Shown here in pieces: positions 4,737 through 63,277 of a stretch of DNA of 64,000 nucleotides. The DNA lies in assembly GCA_022539475.1 (NCBI GenBank), contig VCMS01000174.1, positions 51,847 to 115,846 on the forward strand, read 5' to 3'. This stretch comes from Gracilaria domingensis. Lineage: Eukaryota; Rhodophyta; Florideophyceae; Gracilariales; Gracilariaceae. The notes under the pieces were generated by a model. It did not search any database. It was given only the letters and a program-made list of their open reading frames with translations, and had not been told where the DNA came from. How positions within the stretch are numbered: the first letter of the stretch is position 1; every line of letters begins with the position of its first letter. The position numbers and the translations under genes were made by a program.

Positions 4737-4737
4737 C

Positions 4738-7308: not shown

Positions 7309-7330
7309 TAGGTTTTCGAAAATGGATTGG

Positions 7331-7681: not shown

Positions 7682-8305
7682 ATGTGTGCGAACCACGAAA
7701 TCACCTTTGCGCCCAGACCAGCCCGGCAACAAAACAAGATAGGAATTGTAGAGTCGTAGAACGAGGCCATAAGGTACTTCATCCTGAAGTTAATGAAGGA
7801 TAGGCAGTTAACGTCCTCAAGATGGCAGGAAACTCCTTCCGATCAGGAGCTGGTCGCCAAAGCAGTCTTCCTCAAGAACATCCTCCTCGGATCCAAGTGC
7901 CTTTCCAGCTTCGAGCTAGCAAGAGGCTACAGGCCATCCCTGTGCGGTCTCACCAAAACTCGAATAGATGACGAGCTCGTGCCCGCATACCAGGAAAGGC
8001 CCGCTCGTCGTGCCCTCCATCTATTTCTCCGCAGAAGAGACTTCAAACACTTGGACAGGACCCTCCTCACTCAACGTATGTCTGTGTACTTCGTTAAAAA
8101 GGGTACGAAAGGAAGTCAATGGTATCCGAGGTTCGTCAAAAAAGTCTTCCAGCACTTCGTTATAGTCTCGTCTACTGAGGACCTTCGTGGCTACTCATAC
8201 ACAGTTGCATACGAAGACCTCAAATTGCGGCCGCGCTCCCCTCTTCTCGTAGAGCTCGAGCAAGTCGAACTCGGCTGGTCCGAGCTCTCAAAGGCGGAAC
8301 ACTAG
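7682..8305 (+). pseudogene. integrase C-terminal part, old copia element (right of nested insertion)
   Basis: The old integrase reading resumes with CANHEITFAPRPAR, which ends at a TAG (7,756-7,758), then continues in frame through RNEAIRYFILKLMKDRQ (glutamate region) and the frame 7,793-8,305 (LARGYRPSL, MSVYFVKKGTKG). It parallels the young element's region 4,738-5,400 (AHELAKGYARP). It ends at TAG 8,303-8,305. A decayed linker follows, where a Tudor-like module would be expected but is not clearly readable. Confidence 0.6.
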
Positions 8306-22618: not shown

Positions 22619-22878
22619 TGATCGCAGGACGGTTGAGATTCCTTCTTTACTTTGTTCTCGTCACAGGGCCTTCCTTATATCGTGTTGTAAACCCCGCTAA
22701 ACCAACACTTGAGAGCAGGCTTCTATCACAGGGAGCCATTCTAGTGCTTATATGAGTAAAGCTCTGTAATCTATAGAACTTGAATTACGAGCGGGAAATA
22801 TCTAGCTTCTTGATAGAATACTCGTAACCAAGCCAATTCAAACTCTTACATGATCTGAGTTACGCACTACTGTCATCA
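22619..22878 (-). repeat. 3' LTR of the second copia element
   Basis: This is a 260-bp repeat paired with 26,912-27,171. The pol stop codon (22,860-22,862) lies inside it, so the last codons of pol are encoded by the LTR. Confidence 0.92.
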
Positions 22879-26855: not shown

Positions 26856-26911
26856 GACGACTGACAGGTTGAACTTTGGCTAAGTGGAGCTTGGGGGGGC
26901 GATGCTACTAC

Positions 26912-27171
26912 TGATCGCAGGACGGTTGAGGTTCCTTCTTTACTTTGTCCTCGTCACAGAGCCTTCCTTATATCGTGTTGTAAACCCCGCTAAACCAACA
27001 CTTGAGAGCAGGCTTCTATCACAGAAAGCCATTCTAGTGCTTATGTGAGTAAAGCTCTGTAATCTATAGGACTTGAATTACGAGCGGGAAATATCTAGCT
27101 TCTTGATAGAATACTCGTAACCAAGCCAATTCAAACTCTTACATGATCTGAGTTACGCACTACTATCATCA
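26912..27171 (-). repeat. 5' LTR of the second copia element
   Basis: A 260-bp repeat with the same ends as 22,619-22,878, followed by the duplication tgaag (27,172-27,176). Confidence 0.92.
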
Positions 27172-27828
27172 TGAAGTTGAGCATGATGTTCCAGAAGCGT
27201 TGCAGGCTCTTGCTCGCAAGCACAGTCTACAGAAGCCACGCCACCAGATCAAAACAATTGGGAAGCGACGAGTACGATACCTCGAAGCCAGGCGAAAGAA
27301 TCTTGCTGCAGAAATCATGCACAACCTCATTCTTTGGTCTATTCTTGGGTCTATATTCTGACAACCGCCCGATAATGCTGGCGGGGCTGCTAGCAGAGGA
27401 GGCATTATCTTCCTGAGTGTTTCGTTCATAAATCTGGCAGCATTGGCTAAGACTAACGATCGACACGCAAAGAAAACAGTGTTTGTGAAGCAAAAGGACT
27501 CGTCTTTCTTATTCTCTTGGCCTTTCAAGCTCACCATGGCTTTCTTCGATATTGTCATCGAAGCCGTTCGTTCGGCAGTCTTCATTGTTTTGATCTACTT
27601 TATTGCTGATCTAAGTATAGCAGTGGTCAGCGCCTGTTATATGCGATCCTTATAGTCACTTCACTCTCATTGATCATGATTTCGGTCACCAAGTTTCTAG
27701 TAGCGGCTATCGACGATCCGGACGCTGCGCATGGTGCTGGCGGGACTCTTACGACATTACTCGTCTTGTACGCTGGCTTTATGAAACCCACGAGTAGGAT
27801 CCAAGACTGACTGATATGGATATACTGG
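27172..27828 (+). pseudogene. PDR-type ABC transporter, first membrane domain remnant
   Basis: With one copy of tgaag removed, the reading from 22,618 continues in frame at 27,177 (EVEHDVPEALQALARK, then KNLAAEIMHNLILWSILGSIF). It meets TGA at 27,359-27,361 where Trp is expected, continues through hydrophobic segments (FFDIVIEAVRSAVFIVLIYFI), shifts frame near 27,620 (RLLYAILIVTSLSLIMISV, LLVLYAGFM) and meets TGA at 27,808-27,810, again at an expected Trp (IQD-stop-LIWIYWMDPI). This is the ABC2-type membrane domain that follows NBD1 in PDR transporters. Confidence 0.75.
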
Positions 27829-38855: not shown

Positions 38856-38902
38856 TTGAAGATAACGACCGTCTGTCTCTTGTAGATGCTAGTTTTTGGC
38901 GA

Positions 38903-39002: not shown

Positions 39003-39494
39003 AATCGCTGTGCAGTAAATACTGCTGGGGTTTCCACTCATGCTAGTTCTTTAGTCGAGGGCTACCTGAACGGTATTTCGCGAAGTCTAGGTTTAGTTTC
39101 CATTAAGGTGCACATTACACGATACCTTCTGCGGAATGATACCCTGCAACGCATGGTATACTGGTGCTAGTACACATGATGCCCATTATGAAATCATACC
39201 GTTTTATTCGTATCTATTCCTCTATCGACCGCTTTTGCTAACCACTACTTCGCTATATTACATGTACCATTTCCCCATGATGGAGCGGTTGTAGGCGCAT
39301 TCTGCGGCAGATGCCGCAGAATGCACCTCTACCATAGTGCTGTCTCGGTAGAACAAATACGCACTCCGAGAGTATGAGGCGCGAAGCGCCTCATCCTCCC
39401 CGTTCCTCATGTAGGGAACCATGCCCAGATGCATGGTTCCCTACTTGAGGAACCTGCACCTGCAACTCGTGAGCTACGTCCGCATCAAAAGTCA
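39003..39494. other. non-coding, with a cluster of three hairpins (39,297-39,453)
   Basis: Hairpin 1, 39,297-39,324: 12-bp arms gcattctgcggc / gccgcagaatgc around agat. Hairpin 2, 39,374-39,394: 9-bp arms atgaggcgc / gcgcctcat around gaa. Hairpin 3, 39,402-39,453: 23-bp arms with one mismatch (starting gttcctcatgtaggg) around ccagat. No gene is seen. Confidence 0.8.
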
Positions 39495-40387
39495 TTTACC
39501 TGTATACGCAAGCAGGAAGTATCCATAAGTTAGTCAATGATCCGTTAGATACATTTGAAATGCGATGGAACGTACCATTGATAAAACAAAACAGAAAGGT
39601 TGCGCTAGAAAAGTCGAGGGACCTAGTAACTCCCAAACGGAAGAAGAAGCAGGAAAGCGATCGGTTAGATTACCAGCCCACCATATCATCGTAAAGCGCG
39701 AAAGGTGTCGAAGCGAGAACTCACAAGCAAGGACACCAAGAATGCCCATGCAGCAAACATACCGCAAGATGCGATAAACGAGAGAGCAGCCTATGTCCCA
39801 ACCAAGTACCAGAATCGCCTATCCCGAACAGCTAGAGATCGATCTTGAGAGACGAAATGAAATTTGTCGTTTACCTGTATACGCAAGCAGAAAGTATCCA
39901 TAAGTTAGTCAATGCTCCGTTGGATACATTTGAAATGCGATGGAATGTACCATTGATAGAGCAAAACAGAAAGGTTGCGCTAGAAAAGTCGAGGGACCTA
40001 GTAACTCGCAAAAGGAAGAAGAAGCAGGAAAAGGATCGGTTAGATTACCAGCCCACCATCATCGTAAAGCGCGAAAGGTGTCCAAGCGAGAACTCACAAG
40101 CAAGGACACCAAGAATGCCCATGCAGCAAACATACCGCAAGATGCGATAAACGAGAGAGCAGCCTATGTCCCAACCAAGTACCAGAATCGCCTATCCCGA
40201 ACAGCCAGAGACCGATCTTGAGAGACGAAATGAAATTTGTCGTTTACCTGTATACGCAAGCAGAAAGTATCCATAAGTTAGTCAATGCTCCGTTGGATAC
40301 ATTTGAAATGCGAGGGAACGTATCATTGATAGAGCAAAACAGAAAGGTTGCGCTAGAAAAGTCGAGGGACCTAGTAACTCGCAAAAG
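39495..40387. repeat. tandem repeat of about 374 bp, 2.4 copies
   Basis: Units start at tttacctgtatacgcaagca: 39,495-39,869 (375 bp), 39,870-40,242 (373 bp) and a partial third copy 40,243-40,387. They differ by scattered substitutions and small indels. On the + strand each unit can be read as DEMKFVVYLYTQAESIHKLV...RDLVTRKRKKKQ, a helical, Lys-rich peptide, but unit lengths are not multiples of three, so the frame breaks in each unit. It may be a duplicated gene fragment or a large satellite unit. Confidence 0.9.
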
Positions 40388-41039
40388 TAACCCAAAGCCT
40401 TTTTCCTGCCGTTTACATGTCGCAGAGCGCGAAGAGACGTGGTGAGGATTGGTTAGTTTAGAACAAAGATACGTAGAAGGATATGGAAGCACGTACGAAA
40501 AGACTGCACGGAAAGACTGCACGGAATTACGGATGCGGATGACGTCCGCCTTATGGAGGCGTCCATTAGGCGGACATGAAGCGTACCTCATTCTCTTCCC
40601 CGCAATCTACTTCGTAGCGAGTCCGAGGGCGGAGAAAGGTACGACGGAGCGCCGCTCGTGATCCGTGCCATCCACATCTTCGCGTTCTACTCCGGCGGAG
40701 TAGAACGCGCAACGGTAACGGTAGGTCGGACGCCGGAGGCGCGGCGGCGGCGGAGGGAAGAGATTTATTTTTCTGTGCGAGATTGGACAGGTGTAGAGCG
40801 TACAACGTTGCGAAACCACAGGTTTATAACCAGTGGTAGATAATACAAGAAGTACACCCTTGTGTTGAGGTCGACGTGTACCTACGTTCCTTTTTGAACG
40901 AAAGCACGTGATTTAAACTCAAAATATATTCTCCGTTCTCAGCTTGACGTCGATCTTTACTCTCGCTCGACCTCCTTCTCCCTTTGGACGACCTTCCCTT
41001 GCAGTCTTTGTCGTCGTTTCTCCTTCATTTCTTCTTCCC
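40388..41039. other. non-coding with two hairpins, upstream of the Plavaka-like transposase
   Basis: Hairpin 40,544-40,575 has 14-bp arms with one mismatch (gtccgccttatgga / tccattaggcggac). Hairpin 40,681-40,709 has perfect 14-bp arms (cgcgttctactccg / cggagtagaacgcg) around one base. The frame of the downstream transposase is open from 40,944, but the first 32 codons look like leader. Confidence 0.6.
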
Positions 41040-42484
41040 ATGGTCTACTACTGTACACATAAGAAGCGTGGGTGCCCCTTCGTTACTCGCCGAGGAGTCT
41101 TATCTCTTCAACAGCATGTCAACCATTGCCCGTTTCGTCTGAAAGCAGCGCTGGAAGACGACAATAGGCAGCCCATTCGGAGAAGCAAGCGTCTCAAGCT
41201 TTCCGCGCCCGCGCCCGCATCTTCCGAAACGGTCACTGCCCCTTGTCGCCTTCCCGAGCCTCCGGTGTCCGAGGACATCGTCGACCCCACTCCGTGCGCC
41301 CCTCCCATTCCGGACACTTCGCATTGTGTTTCTCCTTCCCCGGGTCCCGCGTCATTAGAGCGAGAACACGGAAGCAGTTCCCGCCCAGTGCCTTCTGAGG
41401 AGGCCCTCGGTGATTTGCATATGGATTATCTCACGGTTTGTCTGGCTTCAGTAGCTTCCAACCTTGGTCATCGTGAGGCAGACGAGCTAATTGGGCTACT
41501 TCGGGACCCGCGATTCTCGCAAAAGCGATTCAACGAGACCATAACAAGTTCCAAGCGCTGTACAGAACTGAAAAACGCCATTTTCGAGCGATACGCCTCA
41601 AAGGACGGTTTCAATCGAAGAACTGTCTCGCCAGAAGGATGTAAGTTCAGCGCCACCCTCTACACGAGAGACCCCGTTCAGACACTTGTGAAACAGCTCC
41701 AGTTGGCTAACAACGAAAACACATTCTTCCACCCTATACCTCAGACCCACTCCACGAAAATATCTCACCCCATGTCCGGCTCTCTCGCAAGAGACGCCAC
41801 CTCAAAACTTATGGAAATCGTCATGGGCTCTTTGGATAGTAGAATAGTGTGGTACTCCCAAGAAATAAGTTACAGTGAATCTTTCGTAGGTCTTCTGCAG
41901 GTATACACCGATAAGTCTTCAACAACTCTAAAGCAAACATCGGTTACCGCCTATCCTCTTCACCTCATATTTCTCAACTTCTCCGACGAGCTTCGCCGTA
42001 AGTGCATCCGTGATGACCTCACAGTAGTGGCATACTTCCCTACCACACTGATCGAGGTTTCCGCATCTGAAGCAGACGCAATGCCATTCGTTTCTAGCAA
42101 GTCCCTACGCGAGTCCAGGATGCAAATCCTTCAAGAATCTCTTCGTCAAGTCCTGGAGCCCATTCTAAATCTCACGCAGAAAGGTTTTCAGTTCATCGGC
42201 GAAGACAAACTAAGTCGAGTGTGCCATCCTCTGCTTGCAAGTTATTGCGCGGATATTCCTGAGGCTAAGGACATTCTGTCCATTCTTCATGGGACCAAAA
42301 CGGAAAGCCCGTGTCATAGATGCAAAGCCCCTCGCTCATCTTTATGCAGTCCTATTCCCACCTCATTCAACGGACGTTCTCAGAAGCACACGAAAAGCAT
42401 CCGAAAGACATACACAGCTATCTTGCAACATGCACAAAAAGACGAGGCGGAAAGACGTCCACGTCGTGCGAGGGAGAGGAGATC
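41040..42484 (+). CDS. Tnp2/Plavaka-like transposase, N-terminal part
   Basis: The likely start is ATG 41,040 (MVYYCTHKKRGCPF). It opens with a zinc-finger-like C/H cluster (CTHKKRGCPFVTRRGVLSLQQHVNHC), as in Plavaka-type transposases, then a basic and proline-rich linker and a conserved region (VWYSQEISYSESFVGLLQVYTD, LTVVAYFPTTLIEV, SPCHRCKAP). Coding is interrupted at 42,484 by a gypsy element and resumes in the same frame at 49,806. The spliced-together gene would be about 1,010 codons, close to full length for such transposases. Apart from the insertion I see no stop or shift. It would move a CACTA-superfamily DNA transposon. Confidence 0.75.
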
Positions 42485-43001
42485 TGTTAGAACACTGGGT
42501 CTGAGGTTGAGAACGTGAACGATGGTGACTGCCGAGGAGAGTTCGGGCAGTCGACCAGGGTTTATATGGAGAATCGGACCTTCGAAAATAAGGTCGTTAA
42601 CGCAGATTTCTAGAATATCCCTCAAACTAATGTGTCTATGAGTACTGGCCCTTGCGTCGGAATTAGTGTAGAAACTGTGCGTAGAAATCGACAGTGGAGT
42701 CGTCTAGAAGCTTCTAGAAGTTCCTGAAACGTGTCCATTTGTAGAAGTTCCAGCAAGGCACCGAAACTATGAAGTCAGTCATGACGTCAACTGACGAGGC
42801 AGACATCACACGTGACATGTCTTGGTAACATTATGACAACTAATGTCAAACAAAGACTCTGAGGATCATTAGGGTATCAAATCGGATCGCTAGATCACGG
42901 GGAATTCAAAGAAAGCATCAAAACATTAAATGACTAACTAAAAGCGTAGCAATATAACAAATTCAAATAAAAACATGACCAGAATTAACGAAATCCTAAC
43001 A
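42485..43001 (-). repeat. 3' LTR of gypsy element
   Basis: A 517-bp repeat. Read on the - strand it contains a TATA-like catataaac (plus-strand tttatatg at 42,561-42,568). Paired with 49,284-49,800; differences seen are one A/G and two C/T. Confidence 0.95.
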
Positions 43002-49283: not shown

Positions 49284-49800
49284 TGTTAGAACACTGGGTC
49301 TGAGGTTGAGAACGTGAACGATGGTGACTGCCGAGGAGAGTTCGGGCAGTCGACCAGGGTTTATATGGAGAATCGGACCTTCGAAAATAAGGTCGTTAAC
49401 GCAGATTTCTAGAATATCCCTCAAACTAATGTGTCTATGAGTACTGGCCCTTGCGTCGGAATTAGTGTAGAAACTGTGCGTAGAAATCGACAGTGGAGTC
49501 GTCTAGAAGCTTCTAGAAGTTCCTGAAACGTGTCCATTTGTAGAAGTTCCAGCAAGGCACCGAAACTATGAAGTCAGTCATGACGTCAACTGACGAGGCA
49601 GACATCACACGTGACATGTCTTGGTAACATTATGACAACTAATGTCAAACAAAGACTCTGAGGATCATTAGGGTATCAAATCGGATCGCTAGATCACGGG
49701 AAATTCAAAGAAAGCATCAAAACATTAAATGACTAACTAAAAGCGTAGCAATATAACAAATTCAAATAAAAACATGACCAGAATTAACGAAATTTTAACA
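49284..49800 (-). repeat. 5' LTR of gypsy element
   Basis: This 517-bp repeat is nearly identical to 42,485-43,001. It is followed by the duplication agatc at 49,801-49,805. Confidence 0.95.
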
Positions 49801-49805
49801 AGATC

Positions 49806-51393
49806 TCAAGCGGATACTCTGATGCGTTCAAATTCCATATCTCTCATTCCTTCGTTCCTCGAAACTTCCGTAAGCCTTGGAATGATCCCGGGATTGTCTC
49901 CATACAGTCTGCTCTCATTCGACCCATTACACAACTTGCATCTCGGCATCTCAAAGCTGATAAAAACGGCCACAATCGAGAGACTGCAGTCAGACACCCT
50001 GTGCACCACAATAGGAACATCTGCATCGCGTTCATTTCGAACGATACGCACCCAACTCCTGAACCATGCAAACGCAATTCTAGCTGCCATAGAACGCGAT
50101 TCTCCTGCCAAAGGTTTACATATCGATTTCTCCACGCAGGAGAAAGGCAAATCTTTGAATGGTATCTTCACGAAAGACGGTCTCCGTAGAATGCTGGAGG
50201 CCAAAAACTACAAAGCACTTGACATGATCTTCCCCTTCATAGGAGCATTCTTTGCCATATGCTGTGGAGAACAGGACGTTGCCCCAATCACAACCGTTTT
50301 CTCTCAGTACTCGGACTTGCTTTCGACCTTATTCAGATACAATCGTGACCCGTATTGGACTGAAAGCTCTCTCCTGTGTCTCAGTTCGGAGATTGAAGCC
50401 TTCAAGCGTTCCGCAACAAAGAATCTGGCGGATTTTCATCCCTCCAGACTGGGAACTCTGAAGTTTCATCTTCTCGATCATCTCGTGGACGATATTCGCC
50501 GTCTGGGAAGTATCAGGTACTACGACGCAGGCATATACGAATATGCACACCTGCTATTTAAGAGACACTACAGAAAGACGTCCAGAAGAACAGCAACGGC
50601 TGTGGAGGAGACTATTCGCTCCATTGAGCACGGACATGTTAGAAAGCAATGGAATGGCAATACTCCTTACCAGCGTAATCCAGGTTTACTAGGAACTTCC
50701 ACACAGCTTTCTCGGTTTGCAATGAGAGGGCGTTCTTTCACTTTACGAGCTCTTCAACATTGTGTTTCAAGTATGTCCAGTTCAAAAACATGGACTGCTG
50801 TTGGAGAGATGTTCTCAAGTACGGACACAAGGTCGATTTTTGACCAAATTGGTGAACAGGCCCTTCCTCCTTTCCTCAGTCTCGTGAAAGAAACACTGGA
50901 TGAGCACTCTATTACATACTTCTCAGAAAAGACAAGGATGACTCTGGTGAATTCGGCCCTCGTGAAAGGCGGTTTCGTTCCCACTCTTGAACACTTCGAT
51001 TCGTCTTCTAAGGCACTTAAGCTGGGACGACCCAAATACCCCATCATCCAACGTGTCTTCGCTTCTCCAGCATTTGGTCCCAGTAGAAAGCCAAAGTTTT
51101 CTACTGTATTGGTAAGCGGAGAAGATTCAGAGACTTGGGTTGCCCAGGTAGTCGCTCTGATTCGAATATCTCTCCTTGATTCTTCACTTACCGCACCAGA
51201 GGTGGCATTTGTCCGGTATTTCGAGGTTTTACCCCCCGCAACAAACATCGACCTCATATTGAAATGCATATCTTTACGGTGGGCTACAAACGATGAAAAG
51301 AACCACACTCTTCCGTTCCCTCGTCATTCCAAAGCGGAGACTGTCGTAGAGTTAACTCCTTGGTACGGGATGGTTCCGGCTTCTGCACTATAG
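49806..51393 (+). CDS. Tnp2/Plavaka-like transposase, C-terminal part
   Basis: This continues the frame from 42,484 after removal of the gypsy element and one agatc copy (RRSQADTLMRS). It contains LLSFDPLHNLHLGISKLIK (conserved catalytic-region motif of Tnp2/Plavaka transposases), FHPSRLGTLKFHLLDHLVDDI, RYYDAGIYEYAHLLFKRHYRKTSRR and a C-terminal domain ending TPWYGMVPASAL. The stop is at 51,391-51,393. No other lesion is visible. It is convergent with the next gene (51,537), 143 bp away, so the transposase might belong to the same large element as the downstream cluster. Confidence 0.75.
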
Positions 51394-51536
51394 AGAGCTG
51401 TCCATGTTGTTCGATCAAACTACCCTGCTTCACCTTTTTGTCCTCCACTCCAATGGTTTCAACACCGATTCTACATCAATCGATTCTATCATGATTCAGA
51501 TGAAGGACCAACTGAGCACGTTGATCTTGTACAGCC

Positions 51537-53933
51537 TTAAACATTAAGGGCTCCATTCTCTACATGTTCACCTTGTGGTGCCTTTTCTTGTGATCCTGTG
51601 CTACTTCGGAAACCGTTCATGTCCATTTCCTTGAACTCCACATCCCCTTCCTCGCATTCACCAACGAAACAATCGCTAATAGAACCCAATCTTCGGCTCA
51701 CACTTTCAATAAAAAATTGTTCTTTCACAGTGAGGTAAAGTCTTCCGTTCGACGGCATTCGATATCCAAATGTAGTCTCTCTCATGTCATTACCAAGAAC
51801 CTTAGTCCAATCTTCCGTTGTCGTTCCAAAATTATGAAACTCGCTGGAATTGGTCCTCAAAACACGTTGCCTAACATCCCCCAGAACATTCTTTAAAAAC
51901 AGAGGTAGCAGTTGGGCAAACTTTTTTGTAAACAGTTTCTGTCTCTGGTCACTCTTTGACACATCCGTACTTAGAAGGCTCACAACCGTCAACACCCAAG
52001 CGTCCAAACGTGCGAGCAACAGTATTGTGCCATCTAAAAAGGTGCCCGTATCCTTGTCTTCCACATCATACCCAATAAACTCCTTCAGTACTTGTACCCC
52101 GACACGGTTTTGGAAGAACAAGTCTTGATCTTCCGTCGGCATATCCTTGATATTGTCCGCATTGGAGTACCTTAGACGAACAAATGGGGCTTTTCTCCAC
52201 CATGAAGTGTTCGGTACACCATTTTCGTCAAGACGCAGTATGTTCTCCTGCGCTTCCTTCAACTGCATTGTGAATTCGTCAGCATTCTCTTCTACCAGCT
52301 TTGTTCTTCTCCAAATCAGATCGTACCCCAGGAGCAGAAATAGTTTATCCCTCGTATTTCTCTTCCGAACGCCCACGACGTCACTCATGGTCTGCCGCAT
52401 TCTCTGCCTAAGGCACATATCTGCACAACGTTCCAGTATACACCTGTCGGTAAGAGATGCTTTTCTAATACCTTCCCAGCTCAACTCCTTCAACTCGCTT
52501 TCAACCATTTTCTTCAGCAAAGCATCTGGCCCCCCCTCTACCGACGGTGTGAACATGCCAAAACTGCCCAAGAGCTCCACGGGGTTTTCAGGAACCATGT
52601 ATGAACCACCCTCCTCCGGCTCAATAAGCCCTTCCCCACTCTCAGTTGCGTCTTCCACCTTCTCGGCACGGTTACCCCAATTTCGGGTGAGCGATTCACC
52701 TTCGAGCCATAGCTCACTTGTTTCTCTCCTTGCCCACGTCAGCATGTTGTGATACACTGCTCGAGCAACCCCTCGAAACACGTCGCACACCTCAATTTTA
52801 TGCTTCTTTCGACCTGTCTGCCCAGGTTCACCAGCACGTGTACTCCTATCTCCCTCCTGTTTCAGTGCCCCTCTTAGCCCTTCAATGACTAGATCCTTCT
52901 CTTCAAGCCTCTTTTCCAAAGCCGTACTCTGCTCTTGGGCGACCTTCACTAGACTTCTCCGAACCATCAAGTCCTCTTGTAGCGTCTTAACCTTTTCTTT
53001 CAAGCAATTCAGTTCATTTAAAAGATCACGTCTGTTCATATAGGTTGAATTCACACCAGTGTGGATATCTTCCGGTATTTCCCTAGCCTCTTCGGCGACA
53101 GGCCCCGGTAATGCCGCAGGATTCGGTGTTATTTCGTTATCGGAACTATCCTCATGTGCCATACCCTTAGACACGAGAGGCTGCAGGCGTTCTGTGTCCA
53201 CCCTTGGCACGGCTCCGAGCTCCAACTCCCGTGTCTGTCCTCCTCCATGGCATCGTATATCAGATGAATTGGGCCTCGTACGAGCTGCAACGGCCCCCGT
53301 TCTGGAAAGAGGGGAAGGTCGAGGAGTAACTCGTCTATCAGTTGTCTCTCGATTTCTTATTGTCTTTCTCCCTTGTCCGGACCCATTGCGAGGCATAATA
53401 CGATTCATAGCGGCCCCAGTTCTAGAAGACAGGGAGGGACGTGACGATCTTAATATACTAGGGCTCTCACGACTTCTCGTCATTGTCCCTTGTTGTCCAG
53501 ACCCACTGGGCGGCGTAACCTGCGCCCCAGTAGCTCCGGTCTTCGATATCGGCCGGGGACATGAAGGTTTTGGTGTCATACGAACCTCTTCAGTTCCAGT
53601 TGTCATGCTCTCCTGTCCTGACCCGCTGGGCCGAGTTACCTCATCTTCTTGAGGAGCAGAGACAGATGCACGATTTGCATTATCGGCAGTTGACGGCACG
53701 ACATCGTTCCCTGATCCACGAATTCTTGACGCAATCCCGGAAGACGCTCCGCTGCGAGATGGGCGAGAGAGTACTGTAGAATGACGCCCACTGACTCTCT
53801 CCTTCGTCGAGGACGACTTCCGTTTAGGAAGTGCGGTGCTTGTAGCCTGATTCGTATCATCCGATGCTCTTCTCTTCTTCTGTCCACTCTTGTTCCGCTG
53901 CGTACTATTTCGCTTTCTCGGCGTTATACCCAT
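51537..53933 (-). CDS. large unknown coiled-coil protein (about 798 aa)
   Basis: The frame is open from 54,005, but the first 24 codons derive from a G-rich tract; ATG 53,931-53,933 (MGITPRKRNS) is the likelier start. The N-terminal 250 residues are disordered and basic, with a repeating pattern of about 38 residues (RPSGSGQ, PPSGSGQ, PRNGSGQ; SKTGA, SRTGA, SRTGA). A coiled coil follows (NELNCLKEKVKTLQEDL, ALEKRLEEKDLVIEGLRGAL), then a large C-terminal globular part (LKELSWEGIRKASLTDRC, LFLLLGYDLIWRRT) with no motif I recognise. It is the distal leftward gene of the divergent cluster. A structural or DNA-packaging role would be a guess. Confidence 0.65.
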   Translation of the reverse strand: MGITPRKRNSTQRNKSGQKKRRASDDTNQATSTALPKRKSSSTKERVSGRHSTVLSRPSRSGASSGIASRIRGSGNDVVPSTADNANRASVSAPQEDEVTRPSGSGQESMTTGTEEVRMTPKPSCPRPISKTGATGAQVTPPSGSGQQGTMTRSRESPSILRSSRPSLSSRTGAAMNRIMPRNGSGQGRKTIRNRETTDRRVTPRPSPLSRTGAVAARTRPNSSDIRCHGGGQTRELELGAVPRVDTERLQPLVSKGMAHEDSSDNEITPNPAALPGPVAEEAREIPEDIHTGVNSTYMNRRDLLNELNCLKEKVKTLQEDLMVRRSLVKVAQEQSTALEKRLEEKDLVIEGLRGALKQEGDRSTRAGEPGQTGRKKHKIEVCDVFRGVARAVYHNMLTWARRETSELWLEGESLTRNWGNRAEKVEDATESGEGLIEPEEGGSYMVPENPVELLGSFGMFTPSVEGGPDALLKKMVESELKELSWEGIRKASLTDRCILERCADMCLRQRMRQTMSDVVGVRKRNTRDKLFLLLGYDLIWRRTKLVEENADEFTMQLKEAQENILRLDENGVPNTSWWRKAPFVRLRYSNADNIKDMPTEDQDLFFQNRVGVQVLKEFIGYDVEDKDTGTFLDGTILLLARLDAWVLTVVSLLSTDVSKSDQRQKLFTKKFAQLLPLFLKNVLGDVRQRVLRTNSSEFHNFGTTTEDWTKVLGNDMRETTFGYRMPSNGRLYLTVKEQFFIESVSRRLGSISDCFVGECEEGDVEFKEMDMNGFRSSTGSQEKAPQGEHVENGALNV

Positions 53934-54184: not shown

Positions 54185-56296
54185 CTATTGCTCCAATGTC
54201 AGAGCCCAGTCCCAGGCGTACTGCTCTCCGTAGTTGAAATACAACTCTTCGCCCCTCTCAATATCTCTTACTGCTCTACAACGAAGTAGAGCATAGTTAG
54301 AAAGGTCGGACTTAAACTGTATCACGGACTTCGCTTCCACCATCTGCACATTAGCACTTCGAGTCCTGTTTGACCGGGGCTGCGATAAATCGCGATCCCC
54401 GGCATGATATCCGGCGTCGTTAATGTAGCCCCCGATACAAAAAGGCGCCGGGACAATGTACACTTCGCTCTTCTTTCTATTCTGAGCCTGTCCTGGTCTG
54501 TTCCTCAGGTGCAGAAGCTCCGTACCAGTCACAGTGACCATCATAGAAAACAACTTGTACCGCACTGAAGTTGCTCCGAGACAGCCACTTCCATACGTTA
54601 AGTGTCTTTCCTTCCGGTTCGTCAGATCCGTGTATACTAAAGTTCCATAAAAATGACAGATAGTTTCCCCAGCCAATATCTTATGTTCCGTGAACACCCC
54701 CATACCAGCACGGGGATGTCGAATCTTAGAAGATGCTACATGTAAGCGATAGCGATTGGCTTCAGCAGTCAACAGCATATGCATATCCATTAGATTCAGA
54801 GCTGCTCCGTACTTCTGGTCCCAAAGATCTACAGTATGCTGTCCACACTTGTCGACAAACTCCCAGTCCTTCCAGTATCTTCCTAGGAACTGAGTAATAT
54901 GTGCAGGCATCACTTGGTACTGGGGGTATCCAAATGGAGCCTCCCATTCAAGCCGACCTCGGTCCCGATGTGGAACCCGTTCATAAGTCGTTGAAGCAGC
55001 ATCCACCACCTCCTGTTCAACCACGATGTCATTCTTCCCCTCGCGAAGAACTTCGGCCATAAGAGTCGTTACATGGTGCTTCGCATGGCTGAAACATGGC
55101 CTGTTCTTCTCGCACCCCAAGAACTTCCTATGCTTTGTCAGCGATAGGCACGCCATACCCGTAGAAAAAGTTCCCGCGAACATGTCCATGACAAGATCAC
55201 CCGGTCTTGTGAACCGACATATCAACTCTTTCATCAACTCCCTGGACTTCTGCTCCGGTCTTATGTACTGCCTACTTGATACTGAACTACCTGGCTTATT
55301 TAACTTCCATGTCAACCACTCCTCCGCTCTCGGTTTTGGCACCCGGTCAATTACATTCCTGTTAGCCGAGAAAGTAGAAGGAATGAAATTGTTCTCCTCA
55401 AATGGAGTAAGACTGGCTTCCTCGGATGGTCGCAATCCACGCTTCACCCCATGAACGGCGTACTCCGTTACGGGCTGTATCCTAAACTTCCGTGGATTCC
55501 CTCCAACATTACTTCGATCCCGGATGAACACCAGTGGATTCCCATCCACTTTAAACGAAGGCATGAGTTCTTGCTTACCTTCGCTTCCAGCTTCATCTTT
55601 CGTACTCGCCGTTTCCGAAAGTATCCTGTGCCAAACATGAAACTGTGCCATGGCACAGAATATAATGAAGTGCCCACCTGACCGAAGCGCGGAACTTATT
55701 AAGTCAGCCGTACTGATCATGTCATCCTCACTGAAGACATCGTGAGCACTTTTCCGTTTGCTTCTCTTCCTTCGAGTGTTAGAGGGAGGGTCTGTTAGGA
55801 CAAGCTGTGCCTCACCCCATAAAATCTCACTCTGATTCACAAATGTTTCGTGTGTGTGCCTCAGGTCCTTCATGTCACAGTTGTACGCTACAAAGTGTGA
55901 CTTTCTCATCCCCTTCCACACCTTGTCCATATTCATTCGAAGAAGACTGGATATCCCCTTCATGGGCGGCTCAATACCAGTCTTTTGGATGTTGTACCCG
56001 GCAACCCGAGATTCATGCACCGCACGATTCACTGCCTTCTCGAAGTCGTCGCCGTCGGAGCTCACGAGATCTATATACTCTCGACGAGGTGGGGCTGGGG
56101 CAGACTTGGTCGAAGAAGGTTCGGCATTACCGGAAGTTTTAGGAGTTTTCGTCAGTTCAATATCGGGTTTCGCGTGAATGCCCACATTGAACCCTGCCGC
56201 ATGACGCATATCCTGTATCGGTTTCCATAGCAGCTCCGAAAAGTTCTGAAATCGTGCAGGCAACTCACCGGAGTCAGAACCAGATACGGTATCCAT
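54185..56296 (-). CDS. beta-class DNA N6A/N4C methyltransferase fused to a SET domain (703 aa)
   Basis: This is an intact frame from ATG 56,294-56,296. Residues 160-400 form a DNA methyltransferase of the beta arrangement: catalytic motif IV first (LVLTDPPSN, 169-172), the AdoMet motif later (PGDLVMDMFAGTFSTGMACL, 366-385, then KFLGCEKN). Such enzymes methylate adenine N6 or cytosine N4. The tetrapeptide is DPPS; the usual aromatic last residue is missing. Residues about 516-697 resemble a SET domain: HPRAGMGVFTEHKILAGETI, FCIGGYINDAGYHAGDR (where NHSC is expected), SANVQMVEAK, ERGEELYFNYGEQYAWDW. SET domains methylate lysines, often in histones. Upstream, the same frame continues into the preceding frame across a single TAG at 56,318-56,320. 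Confidence 0.8.
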   Translation of the reverse strand: MDTVSGSDSGELPARFQNFSELLWKPIQDMRHAAGFNVGIHAKPDIELTKTPKTSGNAEPSSTKSAPAPPRREYIDLVSSDGDDFEKAVNRAVHESRVAGYNIQKTGIEPPMKGISSLLRMNMDKVWKGMRKSHFVAYNCDMKDLRHTHETFVNQSEILWGEAQLVLTDPPSNTRRKRSKRKSAHDVFSEDDMISTADLISSALRSGGHFIIFCAMAQFHVWHRILSETASTKDEAGSEGKQELMPSFKVDGNPLVFIRDRSNVGGNPRKFRIQPVTEYAVHGVKRGLRPSEEASLTPFEENNFIPSTFSANRNVIDRVPKPRAEEWLTWKLNKPGSSVSSRQYIRPEQKSRELMKELICRFTRPGDLVMDMFAGTFSTGMACLSLTKHRKFLGCEKNRPCFSHAKHHVTTLMAEVLREGKNDIVVEQEVVDAASTTYERVPHRDRGRLEWEAPFGYPQYQVMPAHITQFLGRYWKDWEFVDKCGQHTVDLWDQKYGAALNLMDMHMLLTAEANRYRLHVASSKIRHPRAGMGVFTEHKILAGETICHFYGTLVYTDLTNRKERHLTYGSGCLGATSVRYKLFSMMVTVTGTELLHLRNRPGQAQNRKKSEVYIVPAPFCIGGYINDAGYHAGDRDLSQPRSNRTRSANVQMVEAKSVIQFKSDLSNYALLRCRAVRDIERGEELYFNYGEQYAWDWALTLEQ

Positions 56297-56317
56297 CCGT
56301 ATCCCCGAAAACTCTAT

Positions 56318-57279
56318 CTAGTTCCTCATCTGATCAGCCCGTAAGCTATAGAGGCTATCGTGGGTGCATATGGTTTCGAGGTCTGTCAAAAATTCCTTAG
56401 CCAGTATTCGGAGGTTTGTATCGCATTCATCACTCAAGGTCTCCACCGATCCACTAGTACTGCTCTGTGCCACATCCTGTGTGTTGAATCGAGTACTCTG
56501 GCTCGGCGGGGCATAACCAGACTCCCGTGTCTCTAGCGCTGTATACTTCAACGTCTGCATATTCATGTAAATGTATGGTTTCACCATGTGCTGAACGTTC
56601 GTGTATCCAAGATGAGCCGCAAAACAACTCCATGCCCATACGACCTCACTGATAGCGAATCCCAGTCGATCACAGTTGTCTTTGAAGAACGACGTAAAAG
56701 TGGGTATGTACACAGATGGTGCATGGTTCACTTTTCGTTTCTTTTTCGGTTGTTTTTTCTTCATCATTCTGATGTTGTCGTTCTCTCCCATTATATGGCC
56801 GAGGTATGATAAGTATATAACGACCTCAAATGGGTTCACAGCTGTTGGTGGGATGAACACTGTCGTCTTCAGAACCTGCTTTCTCCTGGTCATGAAATAA
56901 CCAACCAGGCATCGCACCGGTAGGTATACACCCATATCCATAGAGAGAAGAAAAAATCGCGGAGTCTCTGGTCCTCATCCCCGTTCTTCTTGTCAAGAAG
57001 CTTCGTTACAAGATATCGTTGTTCCACAGGTTTGTTATTCACAACACTCTTTCGCAGCTGTTGCAGTGTCAAGTTCTGCAGGTTCTTGGAGTTAATGGCC
57101 TCCTCAAACATCTTCCTTGCCTCCGGAATATCCTTATAGTTCTCGGCGCAGAACTCTATTAGCCCTCTAAACCCCACGTCCCGTGGCCGATCAGGGCCTC
57201 CATCGCTGTTTGCCAAAGCATCGCGAAGAACCAAGAAAAGTCTGACATATGCATGGAACGCCCGAGGCGGAGCACTCAT
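56318..57279 (-). CDS. first leftward gene of the cluster, NLS-bearing; probable N-terminal part of the methyltransferase protein
   Basis: The first frame starts at ATG 57,277-57,279 (MSAPPRAFHAYVRLF) and runs to 56,890. A second frame (56,941-56,318) overlaps and continues coding, so a one-base shift near the A-run at about 56,946-56,955 probably joins them (about 330 codons). The first part is helical (GLIEFCAENYKDIPEARKMFEEAI). The second holds a classical nuclear localisation signal (PKKKRKV) and VVWAWSCFAAHLGYTNVQHM. It ends at TAG 56,318-56,320, only 21 bp before the methyltransferase ATG and in the same frame. I recognise no domain. It is either a separate gene or the N-terminus of a protein of about 1,040 residues. 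Confidence 0.55.
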
Positions 57280-57348
57280 GTCGATAGGATGTATCTCCCT
57301 CCATCATCGGTGGAATCCATCGCTTCACCGCAAACAACGGAGGCGAGC

Positions 57349-57356
57349 CTTTAAAT
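57349..57356 (-). promoter_or_regulatory. mirrored TATA-like box, leftward promoter
   Basis: The ttTAAAgg-type box lies about 70 bp upstream of the ATG at 57,279, within the outer palindrome arm. An inverted copy of the box and about 90 bp of flanking sequence serves the rightward gene. Confidence 0.5.
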
Positions 57357-57690
57357 GGCGACTTACGCTGGGCACCCCCGCTCTCGGCAGCCCTCCCAGC
57401 GCACTGCCAGTCTCATCCGTGTCCGTGTCCGCTCCGAGCGGGAGTCCCTTCTGAGGTGGGTGTCCGTGCCGCTTCGAGCGGGTGCGATAGCGTCGCGTGT
57501 CAGCCACGTCGCGATTCGGAGGTATTGCAAAGGTCGCGTATTGTGCTAATAGTCGCGGACCAAGTGAATGTGAAGCGCTAGTTTTTTCTAGTTTGATATA
57601 TGTGCACGGCGTGTGCAGCGAAATCACTGCCGGAAGTGCCGGGAGGAGTGTTTTGGGAGGTCTCCGGAAGGCGCCGGAATGTGGCCAGAA

Positions 57691-57767
57691 CGTGCCCGCG
57701 GGCGGGGGGGTCGGTCGTGTTAGGGTAGGTACCCTAACACGACCGGACCCCCCCGCCCGCGGGCACG
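57691..57767. repeat. GC-rich hairpin 1 with TTAGGGT/ACCCTAA core
   Basis: A near-perfect palindrome: cgtgcccgcgggc... and ...gcccgcgggcacg outside, a G-run/C-run pair, then cgtgttagggta and taccctaacacg flanking the centre near 57,729. Confidence 0.88.
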
Positions 57768-57802
57768 TTTTGGGCGATTTTTTGAAAAATGTGCGATTTT
57801 AT

Positions 57803-57875
57803 GCCCGCGGGCGGGGGGGTCCGGTCGTGTTAGGGTACCTACCCTAACACGACCGACCCCCCCCCGCCCGCGGGC
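57803..57875. repeat. GC-rich hairpin 2 with TTAGGGT/ACCCTAA core
   Basis: The mirror partner of hairpin 1, with the same arms (gcccgcgggc, G-run/C-run, cgtgttagggta, taccctaacacg). The two are separated by a 35-bp AT-richer spacer (57,768-57,802). Confidence 0.88.
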
Positions 57876-58219
57876 ACGTTCTGGTCACATTCCGGCGCCT
57901 TCCCGGGACCTCCCAAAACACGCCGCCCCGCAGTGATTTCGCTACACCCGGCCGCCGGTACGTTGGCGCCGCTGTCCACGTGTATTGGCGGGAGTAGGCG
58001 GTACATGAAAGTGACTGAGTGTACTCTTGACTACTATGCAAAGCATTTGAAGAGCACGATTAAAGAGCGCGACCATTGCTCGCGTGAGTCATCATTGCGC
58101 GAACTCTACGACTCTAAAGCGTACAATCAGCGTGTGAGCGGCCACGGACAGGACACGGACGAGATTGGCATTGCGCTGGGAGGAGCCGCCGAAAGCGGGG
58201 GTGCCCAGCGTAAGTCGCC

Positions 58220-58227
58220 ATTTAAAG
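58220..58227 (+). promoter_or_regulatory. mirrored TATA-like box, rightward promoter
   Basis: The box atTTAAAg lies about 77 bp upstream of the ATG at 58,303, in the right outer arm. It is the inverted copy of the left box. Confidence 0.5.
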
Positions 58228-58302
58228 GCTCGCCTCCGTTCTTGTATCGTCCAGAGCGAGCGTATTGTTGATATACACCTTTCACTGCAATAGCTGTTCA
58301 AC

Positions 58303-60705
58303 ATGAAGCCAACTCGTGTTCGAAAGCGTACGCAAAGCATGACTCCTCGCACTCGGCGGAGCACTCGATCATTGCAAGGTGGAATGCGGGTTTCTCTGCA
58401 GATGGATATTGAGAATGAAGGAAAGGTGATAGTCGGGGAAGCGTTGTTGCATGGAATTGGAAGTGTTCTACGCCGCGAGTTGAACGGGAAGCAATTGGAC
58501 CCAGGTCTTGTGGTGGTTCATAATATTCTCATCAGTCGAAGCGGTCACACGTTCTACCCTTACCGGGCGGAGGGCCTGGATCTTCCACAATACATCCAGG
58601 ATCTCCGGACGGCCGCTCTTTGGGATGAGAAAATGATGGAACCGGTGGCAGCCAGCATTCCGGCGTCCAAGCGACGAACGGTGAGCGCTATGAGTGAGGT
58701 GATGACGCCGACAAGCCGCACGAAGCCAATTCGAAGTTCATCAACACCGAGAGGTGGCGCATCAGTAGCACCTCCGCGGGCAGGTCCTTCGTCTGTTACG
58801 AAGCGGTCTATGGAGACGAGATCATCCCCAGCTACGAAGCGGACAGGTCAAACAAAGTCTACCTCCGCTACGAAGCCCACTGCGTCGAAAAGGGCATCTC
58901 CTGCGATGAATCAGACCGTCGACACAAGGGGATCTTCTGCGTCGAAACAGACGGTTCAGCACGGGACGGCTGTGCAATAAGAGGAAGATGAGTTCATAAA
59001 AGGTCCCCTTCCAGACGCGGATGCGCATGCGCAATCCGCACAAGGAGCTGGTCCATCTGCACCCCAAACTGCACCAGAAACTGCGGAGCAGCAGGACGAT
59101 GACGTTGTGCTTCTGTCCGCAAGAATGGCACGTTCAAGTGTTTCTGGCGAGCGGTCTGGAACACAAGGGACACCTACTCGGAGCAAGACGTACAGACGAA
59201 TTCGTCAGAAGGTACCAAAGTTGAACCTCAATTACTACCGGATGGTTGTTGTTACTGTTGACATCACTCTGGTGGACACTCCGCCCAATTTACTCCGTGG
59301 AGTAAGTAAACGCCACGTTGAAGCCCTTGTGAAGAGTATGGAGGAGCGGGGGATATTGCAGTCGATGGGTTCTCCAGTGGTGGCCTTACAAGATGCTACT
59401 ACGGGAGACAGGGATATTGACAAGGGACGCCTAACGAAGAAGTGCTTCATTGTAGATGGTTTGCATCGTCTGAAAGCTATACAATATTTGGCAGCGACTG
59501 GTGCAGAGAAGTGGAAGCGATTAGCCAGGTTTTGGCGTTGCAATCTGCTGATACGAAGAGATGAGAGGCCCATTGGGATGAAGGAATTGTTATGTGTTGC
59601 TTCGTACCTCAATGAGTCGACGAGTACCATGCGAAGGATGATGTTTGCAGGCAAGATACACTCTATAGTTAGTGTGGTCGCCATTCTAATTGAAAATGTT
59701 GAGGGGGTGACGCCAGCAGACGTGGATCCTGCAGAAGTGACAGAAGTGTTGAAGGAGAGCCAACTGATTGGGACTGTGCAAGAGCGTCAGTATCTGAGAT
59801 ATGCCAATGTCGCCCTGCAACTCATGTCTCGTGAGGAAATGCTGGCCCATTTCGAGGAGATATGTGAGAGTGTGAGTGACATAGGTCTCACACATCTGTC
59901 CCATACTCCGCTATATGTTTTGGATGCCGAGGAGTTTTCCTTCATTCTTGATTGTCTTCAGATGTTTCTATTGAAGGGCAAGTCGACGAAGACGAAGCAA
60001 TGGAAAAGCTTTGAGGAGGTTCGAGGTTTCTTTTATGATAGAGCAGTGTCTCTGTTCCGCCCGGCTCGAGCAGTGAGGAATGAACTGAACGAGGAAGAGT
60101 CGATGGAAGTGTTCCTGAAACGCGAAATCAGTCTGTCTGCTCCATCGAATGAAGATGACGTCGAAGACCCAGACAACAACGCAGCTGTGAATCAGTTCCT
60201 TTTGGGACAAGTTGTGAACTTCAACACATTGCCGCGTGTTCGGAGCAGGACGAACTCAATTAGAACTGCCACGAATTCCGTTCAGAATCGATTGCGGACG
60301 ATGCTCAAGGTAATTCTGCCCCCCGCACCAGTGAAGCAGTCCGTGACGAAGAGGAGGACTCCCGCTGCTGCTGCTGCAACATCTGCCAGTGAAGAAGGGG
60401 AGCCGCGAAGAAGTGCACGAGAACGGGCGCAGGTGAGTTATAGGGAAATTGAGCACGGCCGAAATCGAGGTGCCATAGAAGTTCTGGATAGCTCTGAAGA
60501 AGAACAGCGGGCTCCGCGGAGGAAGAATCGGAGAAAGACTTTCACACAACAGATGAGATCTACTCTAAACAGCATGACACCGGATGACCTGATGTCTCAA
60601 CTAAATGAACATTGTGCTGAGAGGAAGGTCCATGAAGGTTCAGTTCGTGGCATTGGAAGAGGGAGCGAATGCAGAGAACGCAGGCAGTTCTGCATTTGTG
60701 GATGA
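58303..60705 (+). CDS. basic protein with ParB/sulfiredoxin-like domain (one in-frame stop)
   Basis: The frame from ATG 58,303 meets TAA at 58,978-58,980 but stays open on both sides, reaching 60,705 (about 800 codons). The N-terminal part has an unassigned domain (VIVGEALLHGIGSVLRREL) and a Ser/Thr/Lys-rich repeat tail (SPATKRTGQ, TSATKPTAS, SASKQTVQ) like a chromatin-binding tail. After the stop: acidic linker, then LVDTPPNLLRGVSKRHVEAL and FIVDGLHRLKAIQYL (59,447-59,490). This G-x-H-R loop marks ParB/sulfiredoxin-fold domains, which bind nucleotides and in some families cut DNA. The C-terminus is basic/acidic and disordered (ASEEGEPRRSARERAQ, RRKNRRKTF). An independent start at 59,107-59,242 is possible if the TAA is real. 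Confidence 0.65.
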
Positions 60706-62102
60706 CGAAGAGCTTCTTGCTGTGACAGTTCCACGGGTTGTCACCGTCGAGAAAGATGCTGCGCCAGACGATCAGCAAGAGACAGGTGGGGGTTCATTTG
60801 ATGACGAGTTACCTACAGCTCTTCCGGAATCTGAGGAGCACGGACTTGTTCGAGGAGACCCATATGATGGCCCACCGAACCCATCATGGTGCGGGTATGT
60901 CAGCCTGAGACCGCAGAAATGGCAAGGGAAGAACGTAATTGAGCACAAGGACCCCTGGGTCAGAGTCATTCACTTGCCGAAGGGACATAGGTCGGAGCTG
61001 CTAAGTGTCTCGAATCTCAGACATGTACACCATCTTGTCTTTTGGCATGCTGCAAGGGATGAACATCGCCTACGGGCGGAGAAATTTGGTATGCAGTATC
61101 CTCGTACTCGGCCGACAGGTATGGATGATGAAGAGGTGCTGTGGGTTGCTGCGAAAAAGCATGCCGAATTTGGGCAAATGTTCTTCGCCCGAATGCAAGC
61201 TGAGCTAAGGCAGAATGGATATTGCGTGCTTGATGGCTTTGCGACGGATAATGGTGTCCCTAAATGGGAGGAGTTGGAAGAAGTTCGGGAGTTCGGAGAT
61301 GTGTCGGGGAAGTTGGTGGACTTCTTCGAGAATGAGTATGGAGCGATGCCGGATATACGGAAAGGGGAGGAACAGAAGGTGGGTTGTAAGGTCGCGTGCT
61401 TTACTTGATATTCGAATGGGTACAATTGCTGCGGCTTTGGGACTATGGGACAATGAAAGGGAAGCTGTGAAGATGTACACTCCGAAAACTGGTGGTCGAT
61501 TTCTGGGGACGAGGAGAAAGTGCAAGCGCCAGACGCTGCACACCGACTTCAGTGGTCTGGTTAGGAAGGAAACAATGAATACTGGTAACCCCGGATACTT
61601 TGTAATGGCCTCTGGGAAAGAGGGCTTCCCTCTCTGGGTGAGCGCTGGAAGCCATCAACTGGTGGGGATGAACAACCAACAGTTGCGAGTGATGTCGGAG
61701 GTGTATCCAGCGAAGAATATAATCATCCCACCGTACTCTGTATTCGTGGGCCGTGGTGATGTGACACATGCTGGAGCAAGTGGGAAGGACAAGGTGGATA
61801 GGCCCGAGTCTATGGATTTGCTGGTTAGATACCACATGTACATGGTACCAGAGGGCTACGCACTACCTGATGCTGTTCATCGGGTGCGGGATTTCCGACC
61901 CACGTTTGTCAATGGTGACGAGGAGGAGGAGGCGGAGGATGAACTGTTGTCCGATAAGGAGGGTGGGGCGGTTGACATGGAAGAAGACCAAGTGGTCGTG
62001 GAGATTGGTGTGGAAGCGGAGGCCGGTAGAACCGAAGCGCTCGAGATTAGTAGTGATGACGATTTGCCAAAAATGAGGCTGCGAGCGCCTCGAAGTAGAT
62101 GA
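60605..62102 (+). CDS. putative 2-oxoglutarate/Fe(II) dioxygenase (one frameshift)
   Basis: Coding starts at ATG 60,605 (or as a continuation of the preceding gene, which it overlaps by 101 bp) and runs in one frame to about 61,390. It then continues in the next frame to 62,102; no good intron explains the switch near 61,380-61,400. The first part has an acidic leader and GYVSLRPQKWQGKN, then AELRQNGYCVLDGFATDNG, like the N-terminal strand of 2OG oxygenases. The second has QTLHTDFSGL (HxD: His 61,539, Asp 61,545), FPLWVSAGSHQLVG, SVFVGRGDVTHAGASG (distal His 61,767) and LLVRYHMYMVP (Arg 61,827, 2-oxoglutarate binding). The acidic tail ends LEISSDDDLPKMRL. TET/JBP-type and PhyH-like oxygenases share this layout; the exact family is uncertain. 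Confidence 0.55.
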
Positions 62103-62366: not shown

Positions 62367-63277
62367 ATGAAACTGAGAAGTCTATGCAATTCCTGTCTAT
62401 GCGGTACTTGTGGCAGTATGGTGACTGTATCAGGAAAAATGGCTGAGGAACAGAGAGACTTGGCGGAAATTTCACCCAATACCTTTTCTAAGTTCATATA
62501 TGCCAATGGTTACGGTATATTAAGTTCCGTTGATGGAACGTTGAGAAGAGAAGGAGAGTCAATTCCAGAAGAAGTTGTGAAGTGTATGAAGTTCATTGAC
62601 GAACGTGTTGGTTTTAGACTTGTCACAGGGGGTGATGTGGGCGACGTGGAGGGGAAAATGGAAGGACTCGGAGACTATAAGTTTGGTGTCTCGGCGAGTC
62701 ATGGAGCTTTCCTCCGTTTCTCTGACGAGAGGGAAATTAAGGCTGCATTCAATGATCACACCCTTGACCACACTGTTGACGGACTACTGTTCCTGGCAAG
62801 GGATTTGAATAGGAGGCATGGTATTGTGAATGATGATGAGAAGGGGTTCGTGGAGACCAGAAGTGATAGTGGCCTTCCCAATTTCGTGTACAACAAACTG
62901 TGGCAGTGGAGAGAAGAAGTGGATTCTGCTATTGGGGACCTGTTGCAGAAGATGGATGCGTTTGTTATCTATCCCGGGATAAAAGTCGCGAAAGTGTGGA
63001 CAAGCGATACACAAAAGGAAGCGGAGGAGCAAATCTTGTGGATAATGAACCGAGATTTATTGATACGGATGACGTCGTGACGTTCGGAAGTGCTTTGAGC
63101 GACAGGCCTTTGCATGAGGTAGGCGTGTACGGCGTTCACGTCAAAGAAGATTGTATCCCGGGTGGAGTACACAACCTGTTCGAAAGCGTGGAGGATGTAC
63201 ATTCGACAATTATGCTGGTGGCTCTGTTGTACGGCTACGAAAAAAAGCAGCACGATAAAAACCACCATGAATCATAA
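62367..63277 (+). CDS. unknown protein, rightward copy of an inverted pair (one frameshift)
   Basis: The frame from ATG 62,367 runs to 63,080, but homology to its inverted neighbour continues in another frame (about 63,037-63,277), so a one-base shift near 63,037 is likely. Features: Cys-rich start (CNSCLCGTCG), FSKFIYANGYGILSSVDG, DHTVDGLLFLARDLNRRHG, FVIYPGIKVAKVW, then RFIDTDDVVTFGSALSDRP and VYGVHVKEDCIPGGV. I recognise no family. The last 75 residues match the protein encoded at 63,330-63,605 on the other strand. Confidence 0.5.

Follow-up and report, generated by a model that had tools for sequence, protein, structure and literature searches.

Single epigenetic enzymes, for example SET and TET/JBP proteins, are known as transposon cargo (PMC12730594). 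The parts of that survey drawn on here count 11 fungal lineages of DNA transposons that bear TET/JBP genes; Plavaka is one of them, and its families have 2- or 3-bp target site duplications. Giant Plavaka repeats are also described from Amoebidium, in an account whose relevant passages mention red algal database matches (PMC11244446). In rotifers, the protein N4CMT fuses PF01555 to a chromodomain, and the portions of the report considered here describe it as being without eukaryotic homologues (PMC8885841).

The locus described below lies in a window of 64,000 nucleotides (the whole stretch of DNA that was analyzed), which forms the end of contig C174 in a searched genome of 77.9 Mb and 680 contigs. 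The genome contains 14 phycobilisome-linker matches, 10 of them outside contig C680, which fits a red alga. The window holds a decayed copy of a gene in which a PF01555 amino-methyltransferase and a SET domain are joined in one polypeptide, an architecture for which we found no report in the open-licence literature, as judged by titles, the starts of abstracts and some passages.

A methyltransferase and a SET domain in one polypeptide

54185..56296, minus strand: 703-aa ORF, the C-terminal 67% of the 1045-aa methyltransferase-SET gene, holding both catalytic domains
55094..55807, minus strand: N6_N4_Mtase domain (PF01555), ORF residues 164-401; genome-wide match C174:106940-107653
54227..54706, minus strand: SET domain (PF00856), ORF residues 531-690; genome-wide match C174:106073-106552

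The earlier note on this DNA had described a protein bearing DPPS, FAGTFSTG, SANVQ and GEELYFNYGEQY, all of which are found, in the order that it gave, in a 703-aa ORF on the minus strand. Its reading of a beta-order amino-methyltransferase and a SET domain in one polypeptide is borne out both by the intact copies described below and by profile searches, in which the ORF matched the two domains rather than only one of them: PF01555 with an E value of 9.2e-16 (58.9 bits against a Pfam cut-off of 26.7) and PF00856 with an E value of 1.5e-7 (32.2 bits against 22.4). The methyltransferase-SET fusion is real. Among PDB sequences, the methyltransferase part matches the DpnA-type adenine methyltransferase 5hek (1.3e-8) and CcrM (4.1e-6), and the SET part of an intact copy gives a weak match to KMT2A/MLL1 (0.0041). 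A single-sequence AlphaFold2 model of the window protein (pLDDT 29.9) was too poor for use.

Outside this genome, a tblastn search of phages with the intact protein gave 51 records; the 20 of these that were listed match the methyltransferase part alone, with coverage not exceeding residues 505-751, or 24% of the query, and identities of 24.6-28.2%. Alignment with two phage relatives brings out a common DPP motif, Q-K-x-x-x-x-M, D-x-F-x-G and a later G-x-E. An origin of the entire protein from prokaryotes or viruses was also considered; a pattern scan of IMG/VR and of GTDB species genomes, which detects close relatives only, returned no relative.

Decay of the window copy

54185..57320, minus strand: decayed copy of the 1045-aa methyltransferase-SET gene, with its homologous start at about 57320; compared with intact copies, it bears an internal stop and two 1-nt deletions
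56318..56941, minus strand: in-frame piece of the N-terminal part of the gene, terminated by the internal stop
56890..57279, minus strand: frame-shifted piece of the N terminus of the gene

The copy on contig C257 has a frame of 1045 aa that starts 342 codons upstream of the start of the window ORF. In the window, this frame is broken by a stop at codon 335, 5' of the ORF, and by two 1-nt deletions; the window copy of the gene is dead. What had been taken for a gene is the C-terminal two thirds of this dead copy; the gene itself is multicopy and belongs to a transposable element. Against the genome, the 703-aa protein gave 841 candidates, and all 63 that were scored are near-identical copies (87-100% identity), which rules out a single-copy host gene; in nine of the 63, a single open frame runs uninterrupted through 1055 codons. 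Of 20 copies that were read completely, four (L002, L004, L007 and L009) are intact, at 1045 aa. Separate genes for the methyltransferase and the SET domain appear unsupported, judging by the uninterrupted 1045-aa frames of the intact copies.

The intact C257 copy shows the features that place a protein in the N6_N4_Mtase family, with PF01555 at 56.7 bits (cut-off 26.7) and a DPP[YFW] tetrapeptide, here DPPF, preceding the AdoMet motif FAGTF; PF00856 likewise exceeds its cut-off in an intact copy. The changed tetrapeptide remarked on earlier, DPPS, is indeed present in the window, but it is a defect of that copy: DPPF stands in 18 of the 20 copies, the other exception being L003 with DPSF.

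The surrounding element

38870..38882, plus strand: right terminus, CGTCTGTCTCTTG, an abrupt boundary common to many copies
39491..40432: subterminal direct repeats with a spacing of about 375 bp
40947..42484, plus strand: 5' part of a Plavaka transposase gene (ORF 41040-42518, PF18759 at 1e-18), its start inferred by alignment with C359
42485..49800, minus strand: Ty3-type LTR retrotransposon splitting the transposase gene, with 517-bp LTRs identical at 514 of 517 positions and a 5-bp duplication, AGATC
49801..51544, plus strand: 3' part of the Plavaka transposase gene (ORF 49774-51393), its end inferred by alignment with C359
51537..54005, minus strand: downstream element gene of 822 aa (867 aa in C56), with no Pfam match
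57333..58243: intergenic region bearing inverted repeats, from which the methyltransferase-SET gene and the ParB-like gene diverge
58303..62102, plus strand: broken copy of a third large element gene, with the ParB-like motif DGLHRLKA and a C-terminal HTD...GDVTH...R
62367..63080, plus strand: ORF with a weak match to HAD-like hydrolases (PF08282 at 0.045, below the cut-off; 7.8e-5 in C359)

The methyltransferase-SET gene sits inside an interval of about 22.6 kb with short inverted termini. At the right end, window position 38870, the flank differs in each of eight copies, the window included, and 39 of 40 scored genome matches stop within 15 bases of this point; in the copy on C296 the aligned stretch extends a few bases past the boundary. 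The left end falls outside the window; among 40 scored matches for the left stretch of C359, 39 begin within 15 bases of one point. The left terminus of C359 is CGTCTGTGTTCTGCA, and the right end read inward is CGTCTGTCTCTTGTA. Allowing up to two mismatches, the genome contains 577 left and 563 right termini, with none for the reversed-pattern controls. These inverted termini, CGTCTGT..ACAGACG, are neither the TGT..ACA of PlavakaA nor the CATCA..TGATG of PlavakaB. The copy on C211 contains an insertion of about 490 bp (L014, about 3774-4262), which has the right terminus of the element but unrelated sequence at its start.

Ten other copies, aligned across as much as 20 kb, are largely colinear with window positions 38870-64000, the exceptions being insertions, an internal deletion in C164 and the rearranged C465. 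Read in the orientation of the methyltransferase, the gene order of the long type is HAD-like ORFs, the ParB-like gene (opposite strand), the methyltransferase-SET gene, the 867-aa gene and the Plavaka transposase (opposite strand). Nested inverted repeats of 69-74 bp occupy window positions 57637-57932, where the alignments between copies break up.

The transposase of C359 has 1091 aa and carries the domain that defines Plavaka (PF18759, 4.5e-19). In the genome, the transposase gave 1782 candidates, of which the 42 scored are all at 97-100% identity, and 37 of these lack a stop. When 48 of the 150 scored SET matches were compared, at least 14 of the 42 transposase matches proved to have one in convergent orientation at a distance of 2678-2693 bp. 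The Ty3-type retrotransposon that splits the window copy of the transposase gene is young. Elsewhere in the window, pairs of direct repeats flank ORFs at 2417-7629 (at least 300 bp, 100% identity) and at 22619-27172 (261 bp, 97%); these look like other LTR-type elements.

The ParB-like gene has a counterpart at L036:5319-7439 (plus strand), is open over 1308 codons in some of the other copies, and matches phrog_3264 in PHROG (7.3e-4). Its C-terminal HTD...GDVTH...R resembles 2OG-Fe(II) dioxygenases by motif, as seen by eye only; this part gave no Pfam family at E values up to 10 and no dioxygenase match in PHROG or PDB. In C359, adjacent HAD-like ORFs lie on opposite strands, at L036:8674-9543 (minus) and 7707-8615 (plus), with PF08282 at 1.7e-11 and 7.8e-5, respectively.

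Given that large intron-poor repeats of viral origin occur in another protist, according to the part of that account considered (PMC11244446), the gene might be thought to come from an endogenous large DNA virus. We regard this as very improbable: the Ty3 insertion aside, the element ORFs scanned gave no capsid, packaging or polymerase family above the Pfam cut-offs; IMG/VR yielded no relative of the methyltransferase-SET, 2OG-like or transposase proteins in a scan that finds close relatives only; and the element has a transposase and short inverted termini.

Distribution and age of the fusion

With 150 scored PF01555 matches out of 328 candidates, this one genome is a large repeat-borne source of the class whose rotifer member was described, in the portions of the report considered, as lacking eukaryotic homologues (PMC8885841). 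The SET profile likewise gave 311 candidates, of which 150 were scored. A scored SET match lies downstream on the same strand for 76 of the 150 scored PF01555 matches, at a spacing of exactly 388 nt in 36 of them. The other 74 PF01555 matches have no SET partner; 27 of these are 693 or 696 nt long and probably represent a further multicopy methyltransferase family without a SET domain. Examples of this length class occur on C266, C19, C273 and C161, and on C12 and C399 in frames of more than 1000 codons. Other unpartnered matches look like members of the window family whose SET part is lost or falls outside the scored list. Conversely, 74 scored SET matches have no methyltransferase partner in the scored list, and eight of them, which score far higher than the others at 50-98 bits, are probably host genes.

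On contig C382, both profiles match at each of three places, with 445 nt between the two matches, in frames of 1169-1170 codons. The SET stretch from one of these places is 34% identical to that of the window family and reads YINH...KPNVE. Since a second, diverged lineage thus keeps the methyltransferase and SET domains in one frame, the fusion is, to judge by these sequences, old.

Constraint and catalytic motifs

In sums over every pairing of the 20 related copies, whether intact or broken, dN/dS is 0.36 overall, with 0.47 for the N terminus, 0.26 for the methyltransferase, 0.45 for the linker and 0.28 for the SET domain; part of this signal may be older than the multiplication. For the four intact copies, the corresponding values are 0.26 overall and 0.45, 0.13, 0.36 and 0.15. 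When the genes of the element are compared over 10 or 11 copies, some of them covered partly, the methyltransferase-SET gene has the lowest value of those tested (0.37), followed by the transposase (0.56), the N and C parts of the ParB-like gene (0.73 and 0.84) and the 867-aa gene (0.85). The methyltransferase and SET parts thus both look constrained.

The catalytic motifs themselves are in part unusual. AdoMet motif I reads FAGTFSTG in all 20 copies, departing from the canonical FxGxG in its second glycine, which is changed throughout; the two aligned phage relatives have FMGSG at this position. The SET domain shows the features expected of its family, namely PF00856 above the cut-off, a GxG and a catalytic end of the ELxFNYG type. 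This end is ELYF[ND]YG in 18 of the 20 copies, with a stop there in L017 and EKFYFNYG in L018. The window and C257, the two copies in which the SET start was examined, both have GMGVF together with GEELYFNYG. The missing NHSC motif pointed out in the earlier note is a genuine trait of the window subfamily: the NHxCxPN position is occupied by YINDAG in 19 of the 20 copies and by YINNAG in L010; SANVQ or SGNVQ was also read at this motif.

These alterations, present in every one of the 20 copies in the methyltransferase (FAGTF) as well as in the SET part (no NHxC), raise the possibility that one half is noncatalytic. An altered SET or methyltransferase part would then bind AdoMet, chromatin or DNA and target the other half, as does the chromodomain of N4CMT, whose related architecture is described as "histone-read-DNA-write" in the part of the report drawn on here (PMC8885841). 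We consider this unlikely, given that the dN/dS values of the two parts are nearly equal (0.26 and 0.28) and that YINH and PNV occur in the SET part of the relative on C382.

One mobile unit or a composite

The flanks and the pairing of the termini speak against the 22.6-kb interval being a single mobile unit. The 2-bp flanks match in six of seven short copies (C8 twice, C9, C19, C27 and C2, the exception being C53), where chance would give agreement in 1 in 16. Among nine long copies they match in C6, and not in C34, C359, C50, C51, C23, C5, C38 and C29; in the seven long copies with a listed methyltransferase match (all but C6 and C29), agreement is 0 of 7. Since flank agreement is 1 of 9 for long copies as against 6 of 7 for short ones, the 22.6-kb interval may not transpose as a whole. 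Pairing the exact termini listed for contigs C1-C64 gave 46 left-right pairs, of which 7 enclose a match of the partial methyltransferase list and 39 enclose none; 30 of the 46 intervals measure 10-15 kb, and none of these 30 contains such a match.

Both the flanks of the long copies and the 10-15-kb intervals, which share identical termini, would accord with the methyltransferase-SET gene being a separate element, or part of a patchwork of nested insertions, that merely lies within the 22.6-kb interval. This we judge improbable. The 11 compared copies are mostly colinear apart from the insertions, the C164 deletion and the C465 rearrangement, and the right end breaks off abruptly at the same base before differing flanks; moreover, the flank mismatch could also arise from recombination between copies or from misjoining of long repeats in an assembly with runs of N, as well as from a composite origin. 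The gene is repeat-borne, most probably with a Plavaka-type transposon as its carrier.

Possible functions of the fusion protein

Taking these observations together, we propose that the window holds a decayed gene copy from a high-copy Plavaka-type element and that the gene would encode a joint DNA and lysine methyltransferase serving anti-silencing or end labeling, a proposal to which we give an even chance. The working protein would have 1045 aa, with an N-terminal region, a beta-order amino-methyltransferase that would make 6mA or 4mC and has relatives among the enzymes of phages and bacteria, and, at the C terminus, a SET lysine methyltransferase. It is predicted to methylate amino groups of DNA and, at the very site where it does so, lysines of nucleosomes or of another protein. 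These marks might keep the copies of the element expressed and mobile against host silencing; alternatively, they might label the ends of the element for its transposase. The fusion, its multiplication and age, the constraint on both domains and the neighboring transposase are observed; we infer the catalytic activity, the substrates and the anti-silencing role. The suggestion made earlier, that one enzyme may mark DNA and chromatin jointly, agrees with the apparent constraint on both parts.

A more elaborate version, which we put forward tentatively and consider rather less probable than the simpler proposal, is that the transposon carries a mobile two-layer epigenetic system against silencing, in which a single polypeptide would write both 6mA or 4mC and a mark on nucleosomal lysine in one binding event, with the ParB-like dioxygenase as a possible eraser.

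The proximity of the transposase gene, a convergent neighbor at fixed spacing, together with the kinship of the methyltransferase to phage and bacterial DNA methyltransferases, suggests another role, in the control of transposition. The methyltransferase might mark the termini and thereby restrict the transposase to DNA that has been replicated or is its own, and the SET domain might methylate the transposase or open chromatin for excision. Dam plays such a terminus-marking role for some bacterial elements. This too seems unlikely to us, as 39 of the 46 paired termini enclose no match of the partial methyltransferase list, which makes the gene seemingly dispensable in cis.

If the joint methyltransferase that we favor is confirmed, such a fusion would tie DNA marking to chromatin marking in a very direct, physical way, and under the control of a parasite rather than of its host. 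It predicts 6mA or 4mC on these red algal elements, with a coinciding lysine mark.

Comparison with known systems

The comparisons that follow are with the published accounts as far as the parts considered here extend. The nearest parallel in architecture is N4CMT of bdelloid rotifers, which is likewise a PF01555 domain of bacterial origin in a eukaryote, with permuted order, a fusion to a chromatin domain and a link to transposons (PMC8885841). In N4CMT, however, the partner is a chromodomain, a reader, and the protein is that of a host gene that puts 4mC on transposons (PMC8885841), whereas here the partner, SET, is a writer, and the gene has multiplied along with the repeat. With the fungal TET/JBP-bearing Plavaka, EnSpm and KDZ elements, the present ones share the state of DNA transposons with a DNA-modification cargo, for which escape from silencing has been proposed; the cargo there is TET/JBP, rather than an amino-methyltransferase fused to SET, and the fungal Plavaka termini are TGT..ACA or CATCA..TGATG as against CGTCTGT..ACAGACG (PMC12730594). 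The HarbingerS and MuDR elements of Phytophthora also carry a SET histone methyltransferase as cargo (cited in PMC12730594), but they belong to other transposase families, and the parts of that source drawn on mention no fusion to a DNA methyltransferase for them. Capture of a DNA methyltransferase by a eukaryotic transposon is likewise seen in dinoflagellates and charophytes, where, unlike here, it is a C5-cytosine enzyme on a retrotransposon (PMC5890265). Finally, the giant Plavaka repeats of Amoebidium differ in that the cargo named for them, in the passages considered, is tyrosine recombinases (PMC11244446).
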